Below, one piece after another: positions 26,993 through 41,308 of a stretch of 64,000 nt of DNA. The position numbers and the translations under genes were made by a program. The notes under the pieces were generated by a model. That model worked only from the letters and a program-made list of their open reading frames with translations, did no database searches and had not been told where the DNA came from. This DNA comes from Hymenobacter perfusus (GTDB taxonomy: Bacteria; Bacteroidota; Bacteroidia; Cytophagales; Hymenobacteraceae). How positions within the stretch are numbered: the first letter of the stretch is position 1; the number at the start of each line of letters is the position of its first letter. Location of the stretch: assembly GCF_003944765.1 (NCBI RefSeq), contig NZ_RWIU01000004.1:186001-250000 (forward strand). Direction: 5' to 3'.

Positions 26993-29179
26993 CTAATTGC
27001 CCAAATCCAGCTGGTTGTGTACCAGCTGATAGTAGTGGCCCCGCAGGCTGACCAGATCCTCGTGGGTGCCGATTTCCTGCACTTTGCCTTTGTTGAGCAC
27101 CACAATTTGGTCGGCATTCTTCACGGTGCTTAGCCGGTGGGCTACCACCACTACCGTTCGGCCCGCGAAAAAGCGGTCCAGGTTCTCCATGATAATCTTT
27201 TCGTTGTTGGCATCCAGGGCGTTGGTGGCCTCATCGAAAAACAGGAAGCTGGGGTCTTTGTAAATGGCCCGGGCAATGAAAATCCGCTGCTTCTGGCCCT
27301 GGCTCAGACCGTTGCCCTCGGCCCCGATTTTGGTGTTGAGGCCCAGCGGCGAGTCTTTGATGAACTGCTCAATGTTGGCGGCCCGAATGGCGTGCAGCAG
27401 CTTGGGCAGGTCCTTCTTTTCGTCGCTCACCATGATGTTGTTGGCAATGGTATCGGAGAAGATGAAGCCTTCCTGCATCACTACGCCGCACTCCTTGCGG
27501 ATGGCCGTGTGGGAAATGGAGTTGTAATCGGTATCCTCCATGCTGATGCTGCCGGTTTCGGGCTGGTAAATCTTCAGCAGCAGCTTCAGAATGGTGGTTT
27601 TGCCGCTACCACTGTCGCCCACAATGGCCGTTACCTTGCCCGGCGGAATGTACAGATCGATGCCGCGCAGCACGGGGTGGTTGCCCGCGCCAGGGTAGGT
27701 AAAGTTGACGTCGCGCAGGTGAATGGATTTCTCGTCGGGTAGATTGGTAATCAGAAATTTGTCCTCGGGTTCCTCGTCGGGTACCCGGTGGATGTCGTTG
27801 AGCCGGTCCACGCTGATTTTGGCATCCTGGGCCGTTTGCATGAACTGGATGAGCTGCTCCACCGGCAGGTTCAGCTGGCCCACAATGAACTGAATGGCCA
27901 GCATTTCGCCCAGGGTGAGCGTCCCGTTCAGAACGGCCTGCGCCGCATAGAAAATGATGAGAATATTCTTCGTCTGGTTAATAAAGAACGCGCCCAACTG
28001 CTGGTACTGGCTCAGCGAAAGGGTTTGGGTGTTGTAGTTGAACAGCTTGGCCTGAATTCGCTCCCATTCCCAGAGTTTGTAGCTGCCGCAGTCGTTGAGC
28101 TTTATTTCGTGGACGCCGCTGATGAGCTGCATGATGTTGTTCTGGCTGGTGCTGGAAATGGCAAAGCGCTTGTAGTCCAGTTTCTTGCGGTAGCGCAGGA
28201 AGATGGTCACCCAGGCCATATACAGCAGACTGCCGCCCATGAAAATCAGGAAGATGGAGTTGTTGAACGACAGCAGCACGCTCCCGAACACCAGCAGGCT
28301 GATGATAGAAAACAGCGTGTTCAGCAGCGTGCCCGTCAGAAACAGCTCGATGCGGCGCTGGTCGTTGATGCGCTGCATGATGTCGCCGGTGATGCGCGAA
28401 TCGAAGAAGGACAGCGGCAGGCGCAGCAGCTTCATCAGGAAATCGGAGAGGATGGCAATGCTGATGCGACTACTGATATGCAGCAGAATCCAGCCCCGAA
28501 TAAACTCCACCGATGTTTGCCCGATAGACAGCAGCAGCTGCCCGGCCAGCACGATGTAGATGAACTCCACGTCGCGGGTGTTGAGGCCGATATCCACAAT
28601 GGCCTGGGTCAGGAACGGGAGCAGGCTCTGCAGGAACGCGCCCGCCAGCAACCCCACCAACAGCTGCAGAAACAGGCGCTTGTGGCTGCTCAGGTAAGCC
28701 AGAATTTTGGCCACGCCAATGGAGCTGTCAATTTCCTCCTCCACGGAGTAGAAGGACGGCGTGGGCTCCACGAACAGCACAATGCCTTCTTCCTTCACGC
28801 CTTCTCCAATCTGCCACTTCTCCAGAAACTCCGTTTTCCTGTACGAAAGCAATGATTTGCCGGGGTCGGCCACAAACACCCGGTCTTTCTTTACCTTATA
28901 AATGACCACAAAGTGGTTCTGGTCCCAGTGGGCAATGCAGGGCAGGTTGGCTTCCGTGAGCAGGTCTTTGTAGTGCACTTTGGCCCCCACGGCCCGGAAG
29001 CCAATCTGCTCGGCGGCCTTGCTGATACCAAGCAGCGACACCCCGTTGCGGCTGTGGCGGGTTTTCTGGCGCAGCGTTTCAAGGCTGAAGTTTTTGCCAT
29101 AGAACCGGGCTATCATTCGCAGGCAGGTGGGCCCGCAATCCATGGATTCGAGCTGCCGGTAATGAGGAAACGTTGTCAT
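26993..29179 (-). CDS. Peptidase-C39 ABC exporter for GG-leader peptides (LanT-type)
   Basis: The 728-residue protein has three parts. The first is a C39 peptidase domain with C15 (SMDCGPTCL), H89 (DQNHFVVIY) and D105 (VADPGKS) all present. The second is a six-helix ABC membrane domain (about 160-450). The third is a nucleotide-binding domain with Walker A VGDSGSGKTT, signature LSQGQKQRI and Walker B FLFFDEATNALD. Such transporters cut the leader after a double Gly and export the core. All three plus-strand precursors and the Cys-free peptide carry GG at the expected place, so they are the natural substrates. It is the last gene of the minus-strand operon. The HlyD adaptor at 40379 is the likely partner; no channel gene is present in the cluster. 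Confidence 0.95.
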   Translation of the reverse strand: MTTFPHYRQLESMDCGPTCLRMIARFYGKNFSLETLRQKTRHSRNGVSLLGISKAAEQIGFRAVGAKVHYKDLLTEANLPCIAHWDQNHFVVIYKVKKDRVFVADPGKSLLSYRKTEFLEKWQIGEGVKEEGIVLFVEPTPSFYSVEEEIDSSIGVAKILAYLSSHKRLFLQLLVGLLAGAFLQSLLPFLTQAIVDIGLNTRDVEFIYIVLAGQLLLSIGQTSVEFIRGWILLHISSRISIAILSDFLMKLLRLPLSFFDSRITGDIMQRINDQRRIELFLTGTLLNTLFSIISLLVFGSVLLSFNNSIFLIFMGGSLLYMAWVTIFLRYRKKLDYKRFAISSTSQNNIMQLISGVHEIKLNDCGSYKLWEWERIQAKLFNYNTQTLSLSQYQQLGAFFINQTKNILIIFYAAQAVLNGTLTLGEMLAIQFIVGQLNLPVEQLIQFMQTAQDAKISVDRLNDIHRVPDEEPEDKFLITNLPDEKSIHLRDVNFTYPGAGNHPVLRGIDLYIPPGKVTAIVGDSGSGKTTILKLLLKIYQPETGSISMEDTDYNSISHTAIRKECGVVMQEGFIFSDTIANNIMVSDEKKDLPKLLHAIRAANIEQFIKDSPLGLNTKIGAEGNGLSQGQKQRIFIARAIYKDPSFLFFDEATNALDANNEKIIMENLDRFFAGRTVVVVAHRLSTVKNADQIVVLNKGKVQEIGTHEDLVSLRGHYYQLVHNQLDLGN

Positions 29180-29252: not shown

Positions 29253-30200
29253 CTAAACGGCGGCGGCTTTTTTCGCCTTGACCGGGGGGGCTTTCAGGCT
29301 GAAGGCTTCGCTCCAGAGCTCCAGGGCCACGGCGCGGTCTTTGGGCTTCATGGCTACGTTCATCAGGATAATCTCGTCGAAGCCGTAGTCCTGCTGGTAT
29401 TGCAGGGCCGTGTCGTAGAACTGGTTGGCGGTGCCCACAATGTTGTAGTCGTAGCCTTCCTCGGTGGCGAATACGGCGGCTTTGGCCTTGGCCGTGGTGT
29501 GGTGCACGGCCCCGGCCAGCACCAGGTTGGTTTGCGGATAATGGCCGTGAAGAGCGAAAAAAGCCTCCTTGAACGCCAGCAGCTCCTCCTTGTGAAATTC
29601 CCGGTCGGACCCTTTGTGAAAGATGGAGCGCGAGAGATTCATCTTGTTATCGATGGCGCGCTGTAGGCCCCGGCCCATATTGGTGGTCAGCGACCAGACC
29701 TCGGGAACGGTGCCCTTGAACGGGGGAATGACGGTGCCTAGCTGGAGCAATTCTTCCTCCTCACGCAGGCAGAACAACAGCTTTTCGAGGTGGCGGGCAA
29801 ACGACTCGGGTAGGTTCAGGCCCGCAATACCAGTAGCCAGCTCCGCTACCGTGGGCATCACGCCACCATTGGCCAGGCCCAGGTCAATCCGGCCGGGAAA
29901 CAGGTTGTTGAGCATTTTGTAGTCGCCGGCTACGTGGTAGGGCTGGTGAATGCCCAGCAGAATGCCGGCTACCCCAATCTTGATGCGGCTGGTCATGCCG
30001 GCCAGCAAAGGGAGCAGAATGGTGGGGTTGCTCCAGGACTGCTTTTTGGAAGGAATGTGGTGCTCACTGATCCAGAGGCGGGAAAAACCCAGCAAATCGG
30101 CCCGGCTGGCGTAATCCAGCAGGTCGGTTACGCGCAGCAAGCTGTTCATCTCCGTATGACGAACGCCGAAGTCCAATAAACCAATGGATAGCTTTTTCAT
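29253..30200 (-). CDS. Luciferase-like (LLM) flavin-dependent oxidoreductase of the lanthipeptide cluster
   Basis: The 315-residue TIM-barrel protein of the bacterial-luciferase-like family starts MKKLSIGLLDFGVRHTEMNS. It has LWISEHHIPS, IKIGVAGILLGIHQPYHVAGDY and FPGRIDLGLANGGVMPT, all typical flavin-binding and barrel elements. It lies between LanC1 and the exporter in the same operon (30 bases after LanC1). Related luciferase-like enzymes occur in RiPP clusters, and F420-dependent members reduce dehydroamino acids in some lanthipeptides. Bacteroidota generally lack F420, so FMN is the more likely cofactor. A tailoring redox step on the peptide is inferred, not shown. Confidence 0.88.
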   Translation of the reverse strand: MKKLSIGLLDFGVRHTEMNSLLRVTDLLDYASRADLLGFSRLWISEHHIPSKKQSWSNPTILLPLLAGMTSRIKIGVAGILLGIHQPYHVAGDYKMLNNLFPGRIDLGLANGGVMPTVAELATGIAGLNLPESFARHLEKLLFCLREEEELLQLGTVIPPFKGTVPEVWSLTTNMGRGLQRAIDNKMNLSRSIFHKGSDREFHKEELLAFKEAFFALHGHYPQTNLVLAGAVHHTTAKAKAAVFATEEGYDYNIVGTANQFYDTALQYQQDYGFDEIILMNVAMKPKDRAVALELWSEAFSLKAPPVKAKKAAAV

Positions 30201-30230: not shown

Positions 30231-31463
30231 CTAGAAGAGGAAAAGCTGCTCCCAGGACGTTGGGGTATCCAGCATTTCCGTGACGAGAATCAGCAGGATA
30301 CCCGGAATGCCCATCAGCAGCCCGGGCGCGTGCTTATTGGTGAAGGCCTGCCGGTATTCTTCGTTGAGGTAAGTGGTGGTGCGGTGCAGCCAGTAGTGCT
30401 TGGCTTCGGCGTAGCAGGCCAGGGGCATTTCGCGCAGCAGGGCGTTGTAGCACATAACCAGGCTGGCCGAGCCGTGACAGATATGTGCATTCTCGATGCC
30501 GGAGGCCTCCAGCGTGCGGCGGGTACAGGTATACGCGCCTACTTCATCGGCCAGGGCCACCAGGTGGGGTAGTTGCAGAATGCGGGCGGCCCGATAGAGC
30601 ACCAGCACCACGTTCAAATCACCGTAGCACCAGCCCATGCGGTTGTTGTACTTCACGCGGTTCAGCGGTTCACTCGGCGCCGCGTCTTCATCGAAGCGGG
30701 CCGGGAAGAAGGAGTGGTAGCCGTTTGTCGGCTCCGGGGGCAGCTGCAGGCTCAGCATGTACTGGAGCATGCCGGTGGCTACCGGCCGGATTTCCGCCTG
30801 CAGAATGCCGGCCTCATACAATTTTAGCAGCACCAGCAGCAGTCCGCACTGCCCGTGGGCCAGGCCCAGGTTCATGTCGGTGCTGTTGTTCAGGCGGTTG
30901 ATGTGGGAGTTGTAGAACCGTATGCCGCGCGCATCTTCCACCTTATGCGCCAGCAACTCCTGCAACAGGGTGCGCAGGTAGCCGGCGGCGGCGGGGTTGT
31001 GGCCCAGGCGGGTGCTGAGGTAGTTGAGCGCCCCCACAGCACCATACAGAAAATCGATGTTGCGGTCCTGCAGGTTGGCCTGCGTATTCTGAAACACCAC
31101 TTCATCCAGCTGCCGCAGCGTGTCAGTTCCCAGGTCGATGTCGGTTATATCGTCGGTGCTGAGCACCTGCAGCAGGTAGCACAGGCACGGAATCACGCCC
31201 GGCACGCTAATCAGGGCCGATCCGGCCGGGTTCCGGAGCTTGTCCAGCACTTCATCCAGGCAGGTCATGGCGTGCTCCCAGTGGGCTTCCTCGCCCGTGA
31301 GCTTGTAGGTGTAGGCGTATAGCAGCACATGGCCCAGCTTGCCCGAGAACAGGGAAATATCAGTGGCCGGCAGCTGCGGCAGCAGATCCAGCCCTTCCGC
31401 CAGGTAGGCCGACAGCGTTTTCTCAGCGGTAGATGAAGCAGTAGCGGGCATGTTAGTAACCAA
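30231..31463 (-). CDS. lanC: LanC-like lanthipeptide cyclase with intact zinc site (LanC1)
   Basis: The 410-residue alpha/alpha-toroid has the LanC signature: NLGLAHGQCG (His203), NNRMGWCYGD (Cys279) and NAHICHGSAS (Cys329, His330). These are the three zinc ligands and the acid/base His known from NisC, so it should catalyse Michael addition of Cys thiols to dehydroamino acids and close lanthionine rings. Its start overlaps the end of the second LanC-like gene by 11 bases, which implies coupled translation. It has the usual LanC length. Together with the LanB at 37189 this makes the cluster a class I lanthipeptide system. Confidence 0.95.
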   Translation of the reverse strand: MVTNMPATASSTAEKTLSAYLAEGLDLLPQLPATDISLFSGKLGHVLLYAYTYKLTGEEAHWEHAMTCLDEVLDKLRNPAGSALISVPGVIPCLCYLLQVLSTDDITDIDLGTDTLRQLDEVVFQNTQANLQDRNIDFLYGAVGALNYLSTRLGHNPAAAGYLRTLLQELLAHKVEDARGIRFYNSHINRLNNSTDMNLGLAHGQCGLLLVLLKLYEAGILQAEIRPVATGMLQYMLSLQLPPEPTNGYHSFFPARFDEDAAPSEPLNRVKYNNRMGWCYGDLNVVLVLYRAARILQLPHLVALADEVGAYTCTRRTLEASGIENAHICHGSASLVMCYNALLREMPLACYAEAKHYWLHRTTTYLNEEYRQAFTNKHAPGLLMGIPGILLILVTEMLDTPTSWEQLFLF

Positions 31464-32664
31464 TCAGGGAGAGAAGGACAGAGGAGTCGGTTTCGTACTC
31501 AAGCAGGGCCAGGCCGTAGCCGGCCATTCCCTCGAATAGGGAATAGTGGGCGCTGGCCGTCTGCTGATTGTAGTGGCCTTTGTAGCCGGCCACGCAGCCG
31601 GGTTGCTGGCTCAGTTGGTGTGCCTGTTGGTGCCAGTAGGCAGCGGCCTCCTGGAAAGCCGGGCGTTGCATTGTCTGGTACAGTTGCTTGAAAAACAGGC
31701 TGTTGCCGCTGGCGCCATAAATCAGAGAGGCATCGGGGACGCGGCATTCCGGGGCACCCCGGCGGTAGGCTGCCGAAGTAAGCACCGCCAGCGCGGCCGT
31801 GTGCAGGTTTTCTTCCGCAAGGGCCTGGCTGGTTTGCAGCAGGGCAAAGCCAATGCCCAGGTCGCCGTAGCAGAGGTTGAGGCTATTGGAGGGGCCGGGC
31901 TGCCCCACCACGTCGGGAAACAGGTTCAGGCCGTTAGTCGTCTGGTGGGCCAGCAGGTAGTGGCTGGCGCCCCGCATGGCGGCCTGCAACTCCGTTAGCC
32001 GATACGTACTGCCGGTTTGCAGCACTTTGGCCAGGAACAGTAGCACCGCCGCAATGCCATGGCTCCAGCCGGTGTACACCTGGTTTTTGCCAAACAGATA
32101 AGAGCGCCAAAACCCGCCCTGCGCCTCTTCTTCATACGTGCGCAACAGGGTATCCAGCACCTGCTGCACGGCTTGCGCGGCCCCGGCCGTGCGCCGGCCC
32201 AGCAGATACGTGGCCGCCGGCAGGTAGCCCACAAACGGATCAAACAGCTCTCGTTTAGTCAGCAGCGCAATACCCGGCAGCAGTAGCCGGTCTGTTTTTT
32301 CCAGCACCAGCTCAAACGATTCATCCAGGTAGTGCTGCTCGCGCAGGTAGCTAATAACGGTGCCGGCCTCGGCCAACTCCCGGTAATACAGCGGAGAGGT
32401 AGCCGGGTAGCTGGGCAGTACTTTGATGGCCGTCAGCAGAATTTCGGCCGCGCCGGCCGCGTACGTTTCGCTCTCGGTGAGGGTGGCGTAGGTGTGCAGG
32501 AACAGAAATGGCCCCAACCGCCCCCCCGACAGCCCCGGGCTGGCTGGCAGCTCCGCGCGGTTGGCCAGCAGAAAATCGGCAATGGCGCGGAGCTTTTCCA
32601 ACAGCGGCTCTGCTTCCGCTTCGGCCAGCAGGTGGGCGCTACTTGATGCGGCTTTCTTCATCAC
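31453..32664 (-). CDS. Degenerate LanC-like protein lacking two zinc ligands (LanC2)
   Basis: The 403-residue toroid is aligned with LanC1 through LGPFLFLHTYA, YTGWSHGIAAVLLFLAKV (His202), NSLNLCYGDLGIGFALL (Cys265) and DASLIYGASGNSLFFKQ. The LanC Cys-His pair is replaced by I315-Y316, so two of the three zinc ligands are gone while Cys265 and the SHG His remain. It is unlikely to bind zinc normally. It may be a structural or substrate-binding partner of LanC1, an immunity protein, or act on a different chemistry. It overlaps the receptor gene by 26 bases upstream and LanC1 by 11 bases downstream, so it is part of the operon rather than a relic; no frameshift or stop is seen. Confidence 0.88.
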   Translation of the reverse strand: MMKKAASSSAHLLAEAEAEPLLEKLRAIADFLLANRAELPASPGLSGGRLGPFLFLHTYATLTESETYAAGAAEILLTAIKVLPSYPATSPLYYRELAEAGTVISYLREQHYLDESFELVLEKTDRLLLPGIALLTKRELFDPFVGYLPAATYLLGRRTAGAAQAVQQVLDTLLRTYEEEAQGGFWRSYLFGKNQVYTGWSHGIAAVLLFLAKVLQTGSTYRLTELQAAMRGASHYLLAHQTTNGLNLFPDVVGQPGPSNSLNLCYGDLGIGFALLQTSQALAEENLHTAALAVLTSAAYRRGAPECRVPDASLIYGASGNSLFFKQLYQTMQRPAFQEAAAYWHQQAHQLSQQPGCVAGYKGHYNQQTASAHYSLFEGMAGYGLALLEYETDSSVLLSLIGY

Positions 32665-35077: not shown

Positions 35078-35581
35078 AGCTTCGTCGAGTTTGAATTTCT
35101 TCCGAAGTAACCCGACGCCCGGCAGCTCCGGAAACTTTTTCGACTAAGTGGAAGCTGCCATAGACGTATTGAAAGGGCTCTGTATCCTATCAGAAGTAAG
35201 CCTTAGTGGCTGTCAGCAGGCTTGTCGGCGTTTTCAGGGTGTGCTTTTGTCACCCATTTACGGCTACCACTTTCAGGATTCCTTAATGCAATAGATGCGT
35301 GTTCAATAGGGTTGATTTTCAGGTTTTTAGTTCTGGTTCGAGGGCGGGGGGTAAGGTGCCTTTTTCATGCTAATGCACCTGTTTTAGCCGTGCACAGAAA
35401 GCAGTAAATGCGTTTTCACGGGACCATATTTTTCAGTGTCCGCCAGGAAATTGCCACTTGGTCGAAATACAGTGGCTAGTTTATCCTTCATATGCTGCGG
35501 TTGGTCTAGTTTATTTTTTTAGGGGGTAGTAGTAGTATTCATTTGTTTCATCAGCGGTGTACTTCTCTAACCAGAAAGCTT
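35078..35581. other. Divergent regulatory gap of the lanthipeptide cluster
   Basis: This 504-base, A+T-enriched gap lies between the receptor operon (minus) and the peptide genes (plus). It must hold both promoters. A near -7 box (TTCATTTG, one mismatch to TAnnTTTG) is at about 35538-35545, but no convincing -33 partner was seen. A 61-codon open frame at 35222-35407 has no supporting signals and is not called. Confidence 0.5.
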
Positions 35582-35773
35582 ATGAAAGTCTTGCAGAATT
35601 TTATAAAGTCATTCGGTAAAAAAACCTCCAGCTATGTTTCGGGCGAGAGTTTTTTATCTGTGAATGAAATGGATTTAGTTTTCGGAGGTAAGCCCGAAGA
35701 AGTTAAATCTGATGATGCCTATTGGTGGATCGAGGAGCAGGATTTATCGGATATAAATACACTCGCTAAGTAG
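35582..35773 (+). CDS. GG-leader peptide with Cys-free acidic core
   Basis: The 63-residue peptide is read from the ATG at 35582. A basic N-terminus (MKVLQNFIKSFGKK) is followed by LSVNEMDLVFGG (Gly35-Gly36), a typical double-Gly leader end, and a 27-residue core that is acidic, contains two adjacent Trp, and has no Cys. Thus no lanthionine can form. It could be a linear bacteriocin, a signalling peptide for the LytS-type kinase, or a RiPP modified in another way by LanB-made dehydro residues (it has Ser and Thr). It is the first plus-strand gene of the cluster and sits in an A+T-rich stretch. An earlier in-frame ATG at 35543 is unlikely because it adds residues unlike a leader. Confidence 0.75.
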   Translation: MKVLQNFIKSFGKKTSSYVSGESFLSVNEMDLVFGGKPEEVKSDDAYWWIEEQDLSDINTLAK

Positions 35774-35904: not shown

Positions 35905-36093
35905 ATGAAAAAGAAATCCATCTCCCTGGACAAGTCCCTTTCCCTGGACAAGGAAACCGTAGCCAAGCTCAATGAAGACCAGCTGGGCGACGTAGTTGGT
36001 GGCGGTACCACCAACACCTGCAACAACGTGCCCGCTCAGGAACTCGAAGCCATTCCCACCATCAATTCCTGCCAGGCTTGCTCCTGCAGTTAA
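35905..36093 (+). CDS. lanA: Class I lanthipeptide precursor A1
   Basis: The 62-residue peptide has a leader MKKKSISLDKSLSLDKETVA followed by KLNEDQLGDVVGG (Gly32-Gly33), which fits the Bacteroidota class I lanthipeptide leader pattern K-K-x-T-[IV]-x-x-L-N. The core after GG holds TTNTC near its start and SCQACSC at its end, with 4 Cys and 5-7 Ser/Thr, enough for three or four rings. A tandem SLDK repeat in the leader comes from a repeated TCCCTGGACAAG. The C39 exporter should cut after GG. A second copy lies 224 bases downstream. Confidence 0.92.
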   Translation: MKKKSISLDKSLSLDKETVAKLNEDQLGDVVGGGTTNTCNNVPAQELEAIPTINSCQACSCS

Positions 36094-36128
36094 TCAGTCC
36101 CTTTCCACTTCCAAAACAGCCAGAACCC

Positions 36129-36323
36129 ATGAAAAAGAAATCCATCTCCCTGGACAAGTCCCTTTCCCTGGACAAAGAAACCGTAGCCAAGCTCAATGAA
36201 GACCAGCTGGGCGACGTAGTTGGTGGCGGTACTACCAACACCTGCAACAACGTGCCCGCTCAGGAACTCGAAGCCATTCCCACGATTGGCTCCTGCCAGG
36301 CTTGCTCCTGCAACGGAGGCTAG
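36129..36323 (+). CDS. lanA: Class I lanthipeptide precursor A2, tandem duplicate of A1
   Basis: The 64-residue peptide is read from the ATG at 36129. It is identical to A1 for residues 1-53, then Asn54 becomes Gly and the final Ser becomes Asn-Gly-Gly. Most of the base changes against A1 are synonymous (AAG/AAA, ACC/ACT) or clustered at the two altered positions, so the duplication is recent. An upstream in-frame ATG at 36078 belongs to the A1 3' part and is rejected. The 4 Cys and the ring-forming Ser/Thr at the C-terminus are kept. The two products should be processed alike and could act as a pair or as variants. Confidence 0.92.
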   Translation: MKKKSISLDKSLSLDKETVAKLNEDQLGDVVGGGTTNTCNNVPAQELEAIPTIGSCQACSCNGG

Positions 36324-36719: not shown

Positions 36720-36932
36720 ATGAAGAAGAAGAAATACATTCAGTTGAACGCCGCCCTGGTGCTAGGTAAGGAAACCATTACCCGCCTCAGTGAAGAGCAG
36801 CTGCAGGATCTGGTGGGCGGGCAGGTAACCGAGGGCGTTATCACCCAGTCATCGTGCGGGGCCTTCAGCTGCAACCCCGTTGACTGTTACGGTGGGCCGC
36901 GCGGAGCAGACGCTCCCAACCAACCCGGGTAA
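36720..36932 (+). CDS. lanA: Class I lanthipeptide precursor A3
   Basis: The 70-residue peptide has the leader MKKKKYIQLNAALVLGKETI, then TRLSEEQLQDLVGG (Gly33-Gly34), related to but distinct from A1/A2. The core of 36 residues carries SSC, FSC and DCYGG with 3 Cys and several Ser/Thr upstream of them, so up to three rings are possible, and ends in a Pro/Gly-rich tail (GGPRGADAPNQPG). It is followed by a strong terminator before lanB. The different core suggests the cluster makes at least two distinct products. Confidence 0.9.
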   Translation: MKKKKYIQLNAALVLGKETITRLSEEQLQDLVGGQVTEGVITQSSCGAFSCNPVDCYGGPRGADAPNQPG

Positions 36933-37188: not shown

Positions 37189-40100
37189 ATGGCTGCCACG
37201 CCCTCCCTGAAACTGGAATCGGAGAAGTATTACCTGCTGAGGAAACCCCTGCTGCCACTCCAGACGGTGCTTGACCTGAACGAGCAAACCCGGCAGGAGC
37301 CCGCGCGGCTGGGGCCAGCGTTATTGCATTTGTTCCGCGACGAGCAGTTGCAGGAGGCCATCTACACGGCCTCGCCGGAGCTGTACGCGGAGCTGCACAA
37401 AGTGCTGGCAAAGGGCCTGGACCCTGCCGGCAAGGATGACCGGCTGGTGGCCACGCTCTACAAGTACCTGATCCGGATGAGCATGCGCTGCACGCCCTAC
37501 GGGCTGTTTGCGGGCTGCGCGAGCGGCGAGCTGGCGGAAACTACCACGTTCGATTTCACCGGGGCACCGCCCCTGAAACAGTCCCGGCTGGATATGAACT
37601 ACGTGAATGAGCTGGTGAAGCACCTGCTCACGACCACCGAGGTGAAATACCAGCTGCGCTACTTCCCCAACAACAGCCTGTACGCCATTGCCGACAGCTA
37701 CCGGTACGTGGAGTACAAGGTCAAAAACAAGCGCCGACACTATTCCATTACTTCGGTCCGGAAATCGAGTTACCTGGAGGTGCTGCTGCAGGCGGCTGGT
37801 CCGGGCATCCACTTTGCCCGGCTGGTGGAACTGATACAGGCCGAGGAGCCGGAAGCTACGCCAGCGGAGGCTCAGGCCTATATTGAGGAACTGATTGATT
37901 CCCAGCTGCTGATCAGTGAGCTGGAGCCCACCATTACGGGCGCGGTGTTTTTTGAAGGGCTCCCGCAGAAGCTAGCCGGTAAAGTAGCGGCCCCGGTGGT
38001 AGCGCAGGTAGCGGAAATCCAGCAGCTGCTGGAAGCCGGCGGCGTACGCAACTTTCAGCAAGTACACCAGCTGATTAATACCTCCTTCGGGCAGTCCAGC
38101 TCCAAGGATTTGATTCAGACTGACCTCTTTTTCAGGCCGGAGAGCAACACGCTCAAAACGGAGGTGATAGAAACCGTGACCAGTCAGCTCAGTGAGCTAT
38201 TCGCGCTGGCCAACAAAACCAACCTGCCGGACCTGGAACGCTTCAAGAAAGACTTTGTAGAGCGTTTCGAGGACCGTGAAGTACCCCTGCTGCTGGCGCT
38301 GGACAGCGAAACCGGCGTGGGCTACGGCCGCGCCGAGGTGGGCCGCAGTGACCACCTGCCGCTGCTGGATGGCATCACGCCGCGTGCCGCCGCCCCCCCC
38401 AAAAGCTCCGAGTGGAAGAAGTATACGCAGCTGGTGCATCGCCTCTTCCGGCAGGCGGCGGCCACCGGCGCCCAAGCCGTGGAGCTGACTCCCGCCGACC
38501 TGGCCGGCCTGGAGGAAAAGCCTGATTTGGGCCGCCATACGCCCGCCAGTCTCTATGCTTTCGGCTCTCTGTTGGCCAGCTCGCCGGCCGCCCTGGACGC
38601 GGGCGACTTCCGGTTTGCGCTGGGCGTCTGCTCGGCCCCATCGGCCGCGAATCTGCTGGGCCGCTTTTGCTACGGCGACACCAAGCTGCTCGATAACGTG
38701 AAAGCCAGCCTGCAACGAGCCGAGCCTGACACGGAAGAAGCCGTGTACGCGGAAGTGGTGCACCTGCCCGAGGCGCGCATTGGCAACATTCTGATGCGGC
38801 CCCATTTGCGGACGTACGAAATTCCGTTTTTGGGGCTGTCGGCCGCGCCGGCCGAGCACCAGATTACGGTGCAGGATCTGCGGGTATCGGTGCGGCAGGG
38901 GCAGTTGGTGCTCCGCTCGGCCCGGCTCAACAAACGCGTTATTCCCCGGCTGTCCTCGGCGCACAATTACACCACGGGGCTGCCCATCTACCGCTTCCTG
39001 TGCGATTTGCAGAAGCACGACATCTATTTCGGGGTGAGCTGGTACTGGGATAACCTCAGCTCGGAACCGTTTCTGCCCCGGGTGCAGTACCGGAATATCA
39101 TCCTGACCAAAGCCACCTGGCACCTCACGCTGGCTGATCTGCAGCCGGGCGAGGGCCGCAAAAAGACCCTGACGGAAGCCGCGTTGCAGCAGCAGTTGGT
39201 GGACCGCAAACTGCCCCGGTTCTTCTGCCTGACCGACCACGACAATGAGCTGCTCATTGACAGCCACCACGCGGTGGCCCGGCAGCTGGTGGTGCAGCAG
39301 CTGGAGAAGAAAGGTCGCGTGACTCTCACGGAGTTTCTGGCTACGCCGGATAACTGCCCGCTGCAGGGCCCGGGCAACACCCACTACACCAACGAGCTGC
39401 TGCTGCCGCTCTACAACGGGGCATATATGCCGCCGGGTACGCCGGCGCGGGCGTTGCCGTTGCCTGATGTAACGCGCAGCTTTGCCCCGGGCAGTGAGTG
39501 GCTGTATCTGAAGCTCTATGCCGGTACCAAAACCATGGACCGGGTGCTGACCGAGAAAATCAGGCCGCTGGTGGCGCAGCTGCTGGCGGAAGGCGTCATC
39601 GATAAGTGGTTTTTTATTCGCTACAACGACCCTCATCACCACCTGCGGGTCCGCTTTCATGTGCCAGTAGGGCAGGAAAGCCGGTTTGCGCAGGTCGTGC
39701 AGGCGGTGCAGCAGGCCCTGGCCCCGGAACTGGCGGAAGGACTAGTGCACAAGCTCCAGCTCGATACCTACGTGCGGGAGCTGGAGCGCTACGGGGCTAC
39801 CAACATAGAAAACTCAGAGTCGCTTTTCTACCACGACAGCCAGGCTATAGCCAACGTGCTGAGTCTGCTGGAAGGTGACGAAGGTGAAACCTACCGCTGG
39901 CTGCTGGCCCTACGGGGCCTCGATGAGTTGTTGACGGATTTCGGGCTGGAGCTGCCGGCCAAGAAGCAGGTGCTGCAGCAGCTGTCGGAGGCGTTCTTCC
40001 AGGAGTTCAACGGCGACAAATCCCTGCAGGTGCAGCTCAACGAAAAGTACCGGCAGGAGTCGCGCCGGATCCGGAGCTTCCTGAACCCGGCCGAAGACGA

Positions 40101-40389
40101 GCTTAACGGCATTGAAGACGCCACCCACGAGTTTCTGGTCCGGCGCCGGGAGTCTCGGGGAACGGTGGCGGCAATCCAGGCCCTGTATCCGCAGCCCCTG
40201 CCAGCTTCTGCGGCCGGTTTCAGCCTGCTGGCCAGCTACGTGCACATGTACGTCAACCGCTTTGTGCTGTCGAAATCCCGCCTGCATGAGCTAACGCTCT
40301 ATGGCCTCCTGCACAAGTACTACACGGCCCAGGCTGCTATGGAAAAGAAAACTATTTCTGGCCCTAAAATCGTGAGCTATGCCCTCTGA
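37189..40389 (+). CDS. lanB: Full-length lanthipeptide dehydratase LanB
   Basis: The 1066-residue protein covers the large N-terminal glutamylation domain of LanB (from YYLLRKPLLPLQTV through about residue 700, including LIRMSMRCTPYGLFAGCASG and the SPF/RXXY-type core FLPRVQYRNIILTKATWHL) and the C-terminal elimination domain of the SpaB_C type (about 770-1040: SEWLYLKLYAGTKTMDRVLT, WFFIRYNDPHHHLRVRFHV). LanB uses glutamyl-tRNA to activate Ser/Thr and then eliminates glutamate to give dehydro residues. Pinensin-type clusters in this phylum have a split LanB; this one is fused. It overlaps the HlyD gene by 11 bases. Confidence 0.95.
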   Translation: MAATPSLKLESEKYYLLRKPLLPLQTVLDLNEQTRQEPARLGPALLHLFRDEQLQEAIYTASPELYAELHKVLAKGLDPAGKDDRLVATLYKYLIRMSMRCTPYGLFAGCASGELAETTTFDFTGAPPLKQSRLDMNYVNELVKHLLTTTEVKYQLRYFPNNSLYAIADSYRYVEYKVKNKRRHYSITSVRKSSYLEVLLQAAGPGIHFARLVELIQAEEPEATPAEAQAYIEELIDSQLLISELEPTITGAVFFEGLPQKLAGKVAAPVVAQVAEIQQLLEAGGVRNFQQVHQLINTSFGQSSSKDLIQTDLFFRPESNTLKTEVIETVTSQLSELFALANKTNLPDLERFKKDFVERFEDREVPLLLALDSETGVGYGRAEVGRSDHLPLLDGITPRAAAPPKSSEWKKYTQLVHRLFRQAAATGAQAVELTPADLAGLEEKPDLGRHTPASLYAFGSLLASSPAALDAGDFRFALGVCSAPSAANLLGRFCYGDTKLLDNVKASLQRAEPDTEEAVYAEVVHLPEARIGNILMRPHLRTYEIPFLGLSAAPAEHQITVQDLRVSVRQGQLVLRSARLNKRVIPRLSSAHNYTTGLPIYRFLCDLQKHDIYFGVSWYWDNLSSEPFLPRVQYRNIILTKATWHLTLADLQPGEGRKKTLTEAALQQQLVDRKLPRFFCLTDHDNELLIDSHHAVARQLVVQQLEKKGRVTLTEFLATPDNCPLQGPGNTHYTNELLLPLYNGAYMPPGTPARALPLPDVTRSFAPGSEWLYLKLYAGTKTMDRVLTEKIRPLVAQLLAEGVIDKWFFIRYNDPHHHLRVRFHVPVGQESRFAQVVQAVQQALAPELAEGLVHKLQLDTYVRELERYGATNIENSESLFYHDSQAIANVLSLLEGDEGETYRWLLALRGLDELLTDFGLELPAKKQVLQQLSEAFFQEFNGDKSLQVQLNEKYRQESRRIRSFLNPAEDELNGIEDATHEFLVRRRESRGTVAAIQALYPQPLPASAAGFSLLASYVHMYVNRFVLSKSRLHELTLYGLLHKYYTAQAAMEKKTISGPKIVSYAL

Positions 40390-41308
40390 AAACTACTACC
40401 ACAGTGAGGTGAAGGAAATCATGCTCACTAAGCCCAGCTGGATTCTGAAGTGGGGCAACGTCATCATTCTGGGGCTGTTGCTGCTGGTATTTGCTTTTGC
40501 GGCCTTCTTCACTTATCCGGAGTCGCTCACCACGGCCATCACCCTCACGGCAGTGCGGCCGGTGGAGGTACTAAAGCCCCGGCCCATGAATTGGGGTATC
40601 CAAGCCGTGCTGGTGAAGGACGGGGCCACGGTTGTGCCGGGCACGCCGCTGGTTGCCTGGTACGATGCCGCTCAGGCCGATTACCGCGAAGTGCTCCGGC
40701 TGGAAAAGCTGCTGCGCGCCTATGCTGCCCAACCGCCGCTACCCGCTGGTACAGCCCCAAGTCAAAGCCTGCTGCGCCGTTTCTTTAAAGTAGACACCCT
40801 GAAGCTGGGCAACCTGCGCGGCACGTACCGGATGCTCAACCAACAGCTGCTGAAGCAGCACGATATTCCCGCCAACCACGTTGCGCAGGGCCTGCGCCAG
40901 GTAGCCGCCTGGAAAGCGGAGTTTGTCTCGGTGGCGCACAGCGCGGGGCAGGCCCGCATCAACTACAGCCTGCCCCAAACAGCCACGCCGGTAGCCGCTA
41001 CCCAACCCATCGTGTACGTGCAGCCCCCGGCCGCCGAGTACGTAGCACATGGCTACATTACCGACGCGCAGTATGCCGCCGTAAGCACCGGCCAGAAGGT
41101 ATTTGTGACAGTTGCCGAGCTGGGTGGTACCCGCATAGTGGGGCGGGTGCTGGGCGTAGCCCCACTGGCCGAGAACAGCCGGCATAAAGTGTTTATTCGC
41201 CTGTTGCCGACCGAGAAAATGGTGTTGAACGCTACGTTTTCCGGCACGGCCCGCATTGTGCTGCACAACCGGCCCCTGCTGGAAAAATTCCTGTCCATCA
41301 AGAGCTGA
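40379..41308 (+). CDS. HlyD-family adaptor for lanthipeptide export
   Basis: The 309-residue protein has a short cytosolic tail (MPSENYYHSEVKEIMLTKPS), one membrane helix (VIILGLLLLVFAFAAFFTY), a lipoyl-like strand region (WGIQAVLVKDGATVVPGTPLVAWYD), a helical hairpin and a C-terminal beta-barrel part (QKVFVTVAELGGTRIVGRVLG). This is the membrane-fusion adaptor form used with C39 ABC exporters. It overlaps lanB by 11 bases, so it is translationally coupled. With the exporter on the other strand and a TolC-type channel it should build a type I-like secretion path across both membranes. Confidence 0.9.
   Translation: MPSENYYHSEVKEIMLTKPSWILKWGNVIILGLLLLVFAFAAFFTYPESLTTAITLTAVRPVEVLKPRPMNWGIQAVLVKDGATVVPGTPLVAWYDAAQADYREVLRLEKLLRAYAAQPPLPAGTAPSQSLLRRFFKVDTLKLGNLRGTYRMLNQQLLKQHDIPANHVAQGLRQVAAWKAEFVSVAHSAGQARINYSLPQTATPVAATQPIVYVQPPAAEYVAHGYITDAQYAAVSTGQKVFVTVAELGGTRIVGRVLGVAPLAENSRHKVFIRLLPTEKMVLNATFSGTARIVLHNRPLLEKFLSIKS

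Follow-up and report, generated by a model that had tools for sequence, protein, structure and literature searches.

A zinc-less LanC beside a zinc-type LanC in a Hymenobacter class I lanthipeptide cluster: a candidate metal-independent cyclase

Introduction

In class I lanthipeptide biosynthesis, LanB dehydrates Ser/Thr residues of the LanA cores, and zinc is thought to be essential for the formation of lanthionine. The window analysed here, a stretch of 64,000 nucleotides from Hymenobacter perfusus, contains a class I cluster in which two lanC genes lie side by side. One of the products, LanC1, is of the zinc type, and the other, LanC2, lacks two of the three zinc ligands. What does a LanC without its zinc site do in such a cluster? 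The original prediction regarded LanC2 as a paralogue that had lost ligands beside its intact sister and was retained as a non-zinc partner, chaperone, selectivity factor or immunity protein.

The question reaches beyond this locus. Where a zinc-less LanC stands alone, as the sole LANC_like match of a genome, it provides a natural test of the metal need of the reaction. In clusters with both types, two cyclases could be compared on one precursor. The sequence motif described below, moreover, lets genome miners find clusters that would be mis-scored under CHG-based rules.

Results

The cluster lies in a genome of 5.1 Mb, in which LanC1 and LanC2 are the only matches to LANC_like (PF05147). On the plus strand, three precursors with a class I leader, LanA1 (35905-36093, with a GG motif), LanA2 (36129-36323) and LanA3 (36720-36932), are followed by a full-length LanB dehydratase with both LanB domains (37189-40389) and an HlyD-like secretion protein (40379-41308). 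The first two LanA genes are almost identical and stand in tandem (35905-36323). The product of a small ORF upstream of the LanA genes (35543-35773) has a GG motif and a tail that is acidic and free of Cys, and had no NCBIfam match. On the minus strand are a C39 peptidase-ABC exporter (26993-29179), a luciferase-like (LLM) oxidoreductase (29253-30200), LanC1 (30231-31463), LanC2 (31453-32664) and an outer-membrane beta-barrel protein (PF14905, 32639-35077), the gene end of which overlaps the start of LanC2. The oxidoreductase might reduce dehydroamino acids.

LanC1 and LanC2 matched PF05147 with 116 and 88 bits, respectively (cut-off 23.2). Both genes encode intact LANC_like proteins, in agreement with the original prediction. 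The predicted overlap of 11 bases between them holds for a TTG start of LanC1 at 31463. With the ATG at 31451, which is the likely start, it becomes a gap of one base. Similarly, the overlap of 26 bases between LanC2 and the barrel gene, annotated originally as a receptor gene, requires a GTG start at 32664. It is 23 bases with the ATG at 32661, and the same overlap is 23 bases at locus L056. The ATG is likely to be the true start of LanC2.

The active sites of both proteins were read directly and from alignments. NisC numbering was taken from the family alignment of about 115 LanC sequences and a profile alignment to NisC (2g02). LanC1 contains the ligands C279, C329 and H330, as originally noted, together with H203. 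In LanC2, C265 and H202 correspond to Cys284 and His212 of NisC, and I315-Y316 occupies the Cys330-His331 zinc site; direct reading and alignment to NisC bear out the original description on these points. Asp141 and Tyr285 of NisC are kept as D142 and Y266, while the Arg280 and Trp283 sites are occupied by Ser261 (read off the alignment) and Leu264. LanC2 thus has the acid-base and enolate residues of class I LanCs and shares its cluster with LanB and three LanA genes, but does not have the full set of zinc ligands.

Another Cys/His pair at the zinc site would have spoken against this description. In the alignment of the 39-member clade to which LanC2 belongs (see below), no set of other Cys/His columns fits a substitute zinc site. 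The columns richest in Cys/His after H202 (37/39) and C265 (30/39) carry Cys in 24 and 25 of the 39 members, and LanC2 has Leu226 and Ala298 at these positions.

LanC2 is a single-domain protein of 403 residues with no kinase or lyase domain. Its predicted model (pLDDT 92.1), used here for fold and residue positions only, gave Z-scores of 35.8 with MadC (8byk) and 34.2 with NisC over 358 residues. The Z-score was 25.7 with the cyclase domain of the class III enzyme ThurKC (8sap), and about 18 with unrelated glycosidases of the same barrel type. The LanC toroid of the model and the PF05147 match together place LanC2 in the LANC_like superfamily.

For phylogenetic analysis, 115 LanC sequences were collected from family, order and class searches and from one scan of named genomes that used a single degenerate pattern. 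At the CHG site, 39 of them have a variable residue followed by Tyr or Phe (hereafter xYG LanCs). In a quick tree from which the three ligand columns had been removed, these 39 sequences formed one clade (SH-aLRT 99). A more careful tree of 96 sequences, 35 of them xYG, again without the site columns, gave UFBoot 100 and SH-aLRT 98, and the clade was present in 200 of 200 bootstrap trees. Its members come from Hymenobacter, Pontibacter, Spirosoma, Dyadobacter, Arcicella, Xanthocytophaga, Rudanella, Siphonobacter, Chitinophaga, Pedobacter, Chryseobacterium and a Saprospiraceae MAG. The loss of the ligands is, on these trees, ancestral to a clade spanning several Bacteroidota orders. A recent loss within one Hymenobacter lineage is thereby ruled out, and the view of LanC2 as a paralogue that lost its ligands beside its sister was not upheld; the trees indicate that LanC2 did not arise by recent decay of a LanC1 copy.

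The position of His331 is Tyr in 35 members and Phe in four; the Tyr/Phe helped to define the set, and the tree without those columns gives the same group. The position of Cys330 is free to vary. In contrast, H202 (37/39), Y266 (37/39) and D268 (39/39) are nearly invariant, with C265 (lost in nine of 39) and D142 (24/39) being less strict. Tyr197 is specific to the clade (38/39), the zinc type having mostly Asn there. All 68 zinc-type LanCs have the ligands C, C and H; as this set was sorted by the CH pair, the count is independent for the first Cys alone. The zinc site of the xYG clade looks to have been altered once and then held, rather than to have drifted.

The xYG proteins are of near-constant length and no match contains internal stops, so that frequently broken homologues, which would have undermined the original prediction, were not encountered. 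Between the window and its closest relative, dN/dS (Nei-Gojobori, own script) was 0.09 for LanC2 and 0.12 for LanC1. Over seven pairs, xYG values ranged from 0.06 to 0.25, the LanC2 maximum being 0.25, and unpaired members gave 0.06-0.14.

We then mapped 37 xYG clusters over about 10 kb on each side, less at contig ends, together with 30 zinc-only clusters. A zinc LanC was found close by in 17 of the 37, directly after LanC2 in the maps inspected, so that the pair seen in the window recurs in other genomes. The remaining 20 had no zinc LanC in the mapped stretch. The luciferase-like gene follows the zinc LanC in 17 of 17 paired clusters, and was present in one of the 20 without a zinc LanC. 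The distances of LanC2 and its zinc partner match across the pairs (Mantel r 0.92, with none of 5000 permutations as high), as expected where genes are inherited together.

By raw counts that ignore kinship, the barrel gene occurs in 32 of 37 xYG clusters versus two of 30 zinc-only clusters, and a helical protein of about 345 residues in 27 of 37 versus none of 30. The helical protein (L070:11230-12297, L071:10923-11960, L064:13419-14480 and others) had no Pfam or NCBIfam match over the cut-off and is absent from the window. In Chryseobacterium and Chitinophaga clusters, the xYG lanC gene overlaps lanB.

The predicted cores of unpaired clusters retain Cys (mean 3.0) and Ser/Thr (mean 8.8). Ser/Thr directly precedes Cys at frequencies of 0.56 and 0.53 in cores of xYG clusters versus 0.26 in those of zinc-only clusters (per-locus means). 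This -1 bias (p 0.0007 before correction) was the sole survivor among 12 offsets; in an exploratory comparison of related, non-independent clusters, it may serve as a lead only.

In several genomes, the zinc-less protein is the single LANC_like match by Pfam. These are G028, G051 (H. metallilatus), G062, G259, two Rudanella-type species (G297, R. paleaurantiibacter, the same as G522, and G411; both 99% complete), C. elymi (G530) and a Siphonobacter MAG (G525). Where completeness is stated, it is 99-100%. LanB and Cys-containing LanAs lie alongside in the clusters. H. metallilatus and G062 encode an extra degenerate LanC-like protein that was missed by Pfam and detected by a profile. Pfam alone can therefore overlook remote members, but it is unlikely that a zinc-type LanC, which scores well, was overlooked. 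The G259 protein has Asn at the His212 position and Pro at that of Cys284, and is therefore hardly a normal cyclase.

Discussion

The occurrence of an xYG protein as sole LANC_like match in several genomes suggests that lanthionine rings may be formed without metal. If the clusters with only an xYG LanC yield lanthionines, the zinc-less LanC would be the obvious cyclase, G259 being the main exception. We consider, with a probability of about one half, that LanC2 serves its class I cluster as a LanC-type cyclase independent of metal, paired in the window with a zinc LanC. With slightly less confidence, we propose that the xYG LanCs represent a separate, metal-free type of class I cyclase in Bacteroidota, with Tyr in place of zinc ligands, which would suffice by itself in many species and in others would be combined in tandem with a zinc LanC and the luciferase-like oxidoreductase.

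In the proposed mechanism, LanB would dehydrate Ser/Thr in the LanA cores, and the dehydrated peptide would be bound in the toroid of LanC2. H202, Y266 and, in most members, D142 would then stabilise and protonate the enolate as in NisC, and the Cys thiol would be activated without zinc, Tyr316 and perhaps also Tyr197 acting instead of the ligands. In the window, LanC2 would work beside LanC1, probably dividing the rings of the same peptides, and in other clusters the xYG LanC would act alone. The residues kept are those of enolate handling, and the residues missing are those of thiol activation. Tyr285 of NisC has been proposed to stabilise the enolate oxygen (PMC9934072), and Arg280, one of the residues replaced in LanC2, is reportedly non-essential in NisC (PMC3091789).

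Several facts count against a zinc-free cyclase. NisC needs both C330 and H331 (PMC3091789), and within the xYG clade C265 is lost in nine of 39 members and D142 is kept in just 24, with both His212 and Cys284 missing from the G259 protein. The closest precedent is ThurKC, which cyclises without zinc and has Ser726, Phe770 and Asp771 at the ligand positions, Phe770 and Asp771 being required (PMC10604976). Like ThurKC, LanC2 has a predicted LanC fold without the zinc ligands. Unlike ThurKC, LanC2 is a stand-alone protein that accompanies LanB, with no fused lyase or kinase. It has Cys265, Ile315 and Tyr316 at the three positions, where the clade shows a variable residue and Tyr/Phe rather than the Phe-Asp pair. 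It also keeps the equivalents of His212 and Asp141, which are Asp667 and Ser608 in ThurKC. By analogy, LanC2 may work like the class III LanKC cyclases, yet it is none of them. The Asp of ThurKC at the His331 position is a better base than Tyr, which also counts against the proposal.

The main rival is a non-catalytic scaffold with the LanC fold. Such a protein could bind the leader or the dehydrated core, organise LanB, LanC1 and the exporter, or hold the peptide for spontaneous or ordered ring closure. The absence of two of three zinc ligands would be naturally explained, as would the 17 clusters with a paired LanC1 and matched distances, the G259 member without His and Cys, and other Hymenobacter LanC-like proteins that have also lost His212 and still lie near LanB. 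The matched distances, however, may only mirror shared cluster history. A scaffold would also have to serve in genomes where it is the sole LANC_like match, and it would not be expected to keep H202, Y266 and D268 nearly invariant while ligand position 315 varies. We regard this explanation as less likely than the cyclase, and as the main alternative to it. A dedicated partner would be expected always to accompany a zinc LanC; 20 of 37 clusters had none nearby. The original prediction of a retained, zinc-less LanC2 is thus borne out, with a zinc LanC alongside in 17 of the 37 clusters. It went too far in making LanC2 only a partner, and a role solely as helper of the sister is not supported where no other LANC_like match exists. 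Given these unpaired clusters and sole-LANC_like genomes, a part in the core biosynthesis appears more likely than a function confined to chaperoning, selectivity or immunity.

Less probable than the scaffold is that LanC2 is an enzyme with the LanC fold and other chemistry, such as use of other Cys/Ser spacings, addition of another thiol, or reversal and proofreading of the rings of LanC1. The LanC reaction is reversible, and human LanCLs both add and remove glutathione (PMC9993889). Ser/Thr just before Cys is commoner in xYG cores than in zinc-only cores, but this comparison is exploratory and draws on interrelated clusters. Proofreading, moreover, fails to explain clusters without a second LanC. 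A function in immunity or self-protection is very improbable: the LanC2 gene overlaps a barrel gene that is found in most xYG clusters, but the overlap partner is lanB in Chryseobacterium and Chitinophaga, and the catalytic pocket is conserved. A decaying pseudogene, as the lost catalytic ligands might suggest, is ruled out by the low dN/dS and the lack of internal stops, in keeping with the near-constant length and the single old clade.

The metal-independent cyclase proposed here can be compared with known systems. LanC2 resembles the class I LanCs NisC and MadC in its predicted fold, its LanA and LanB neighbours and its equivalents of His212, Asp141, Tyr285 and Cys284; it differs from them by Ile-Tyr for Cys330-His331 and by the loss of the Trp283 and Arg280 equivalents. 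A 'B-Unk' category of synthetases, in which LanB is combined with a cyclase that has no defined triad, was tabulated in 2024 with 14 predicted peptides, and in principle shares the gene combination of the LanC2 cluster, whereas the main text of that paper describes no such clade, tandem pair or Bacteroidota detail (PMC11251773). LanC-like proteins without the zinc motif are also known from Bacteroidales; these have radical SAM and CAZyme genes but no LanB in their vicinity, and their authors doubted a lanthipeptide role (PMC10352776). The LanABC systems of Chryseobacterium OV715 and Runella limosa, class I clusters from the same phylum as LanC2, gave three rings per product in E. coli (PMC9993889). 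Since the text of that paper gives neither the LanC sequences nor the LanC type, we rejected it as proof of activity.

Pinensin, for which a split LanB has been described (PMC7268733), was likewise rejected as proof of cyclisation; the split-LanB clusters collected here carry CHG LanCs (L167, L170, L175, L205), and the LanC of pinensin was not among the gathered LanC sequences. The open papers covered here report neither a product from a cluster with only an xYG LanC nor an earlier account of the xYG clade, of its pairing in tandem or of its use alone. Public plasmid records label such proteins simply as LanC family.

Some further observations concern the gene neighbourhoods. One pair (G506, L095; NZ_CP089546.1:41443-42534) apparently sits on a Spirosoma oryzicola plasmid of 98.5 kb, and the cluster can therefore be plasmid-borne. 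In the Rudanella xYG-only cluster, one radical SAM/SPASM gene comes close to the cyclophane-forming FxsB/YhhB families, and the Siphonobacter cluster has a similar-looking gene (L064:15201-16442, L067:14605-15864).

Other zinc-less LanC-like proteins were also noticed. A second set in Hymenobacter (L022-L027, L068:20147-21161, L089:17223-18422 and L194-L199), in which the His212 equivalent is replaced as well (ADG and similar), nests inside the zinc-partner clade and lies near LanB and histidine kinase/response regulator genes. In G776, the LanC adjoining a luciferase-like gene (L186:2124-3257) is without the zinc motif (WSNSD, YYG), and both LanCs of that cluster look zinc-less.
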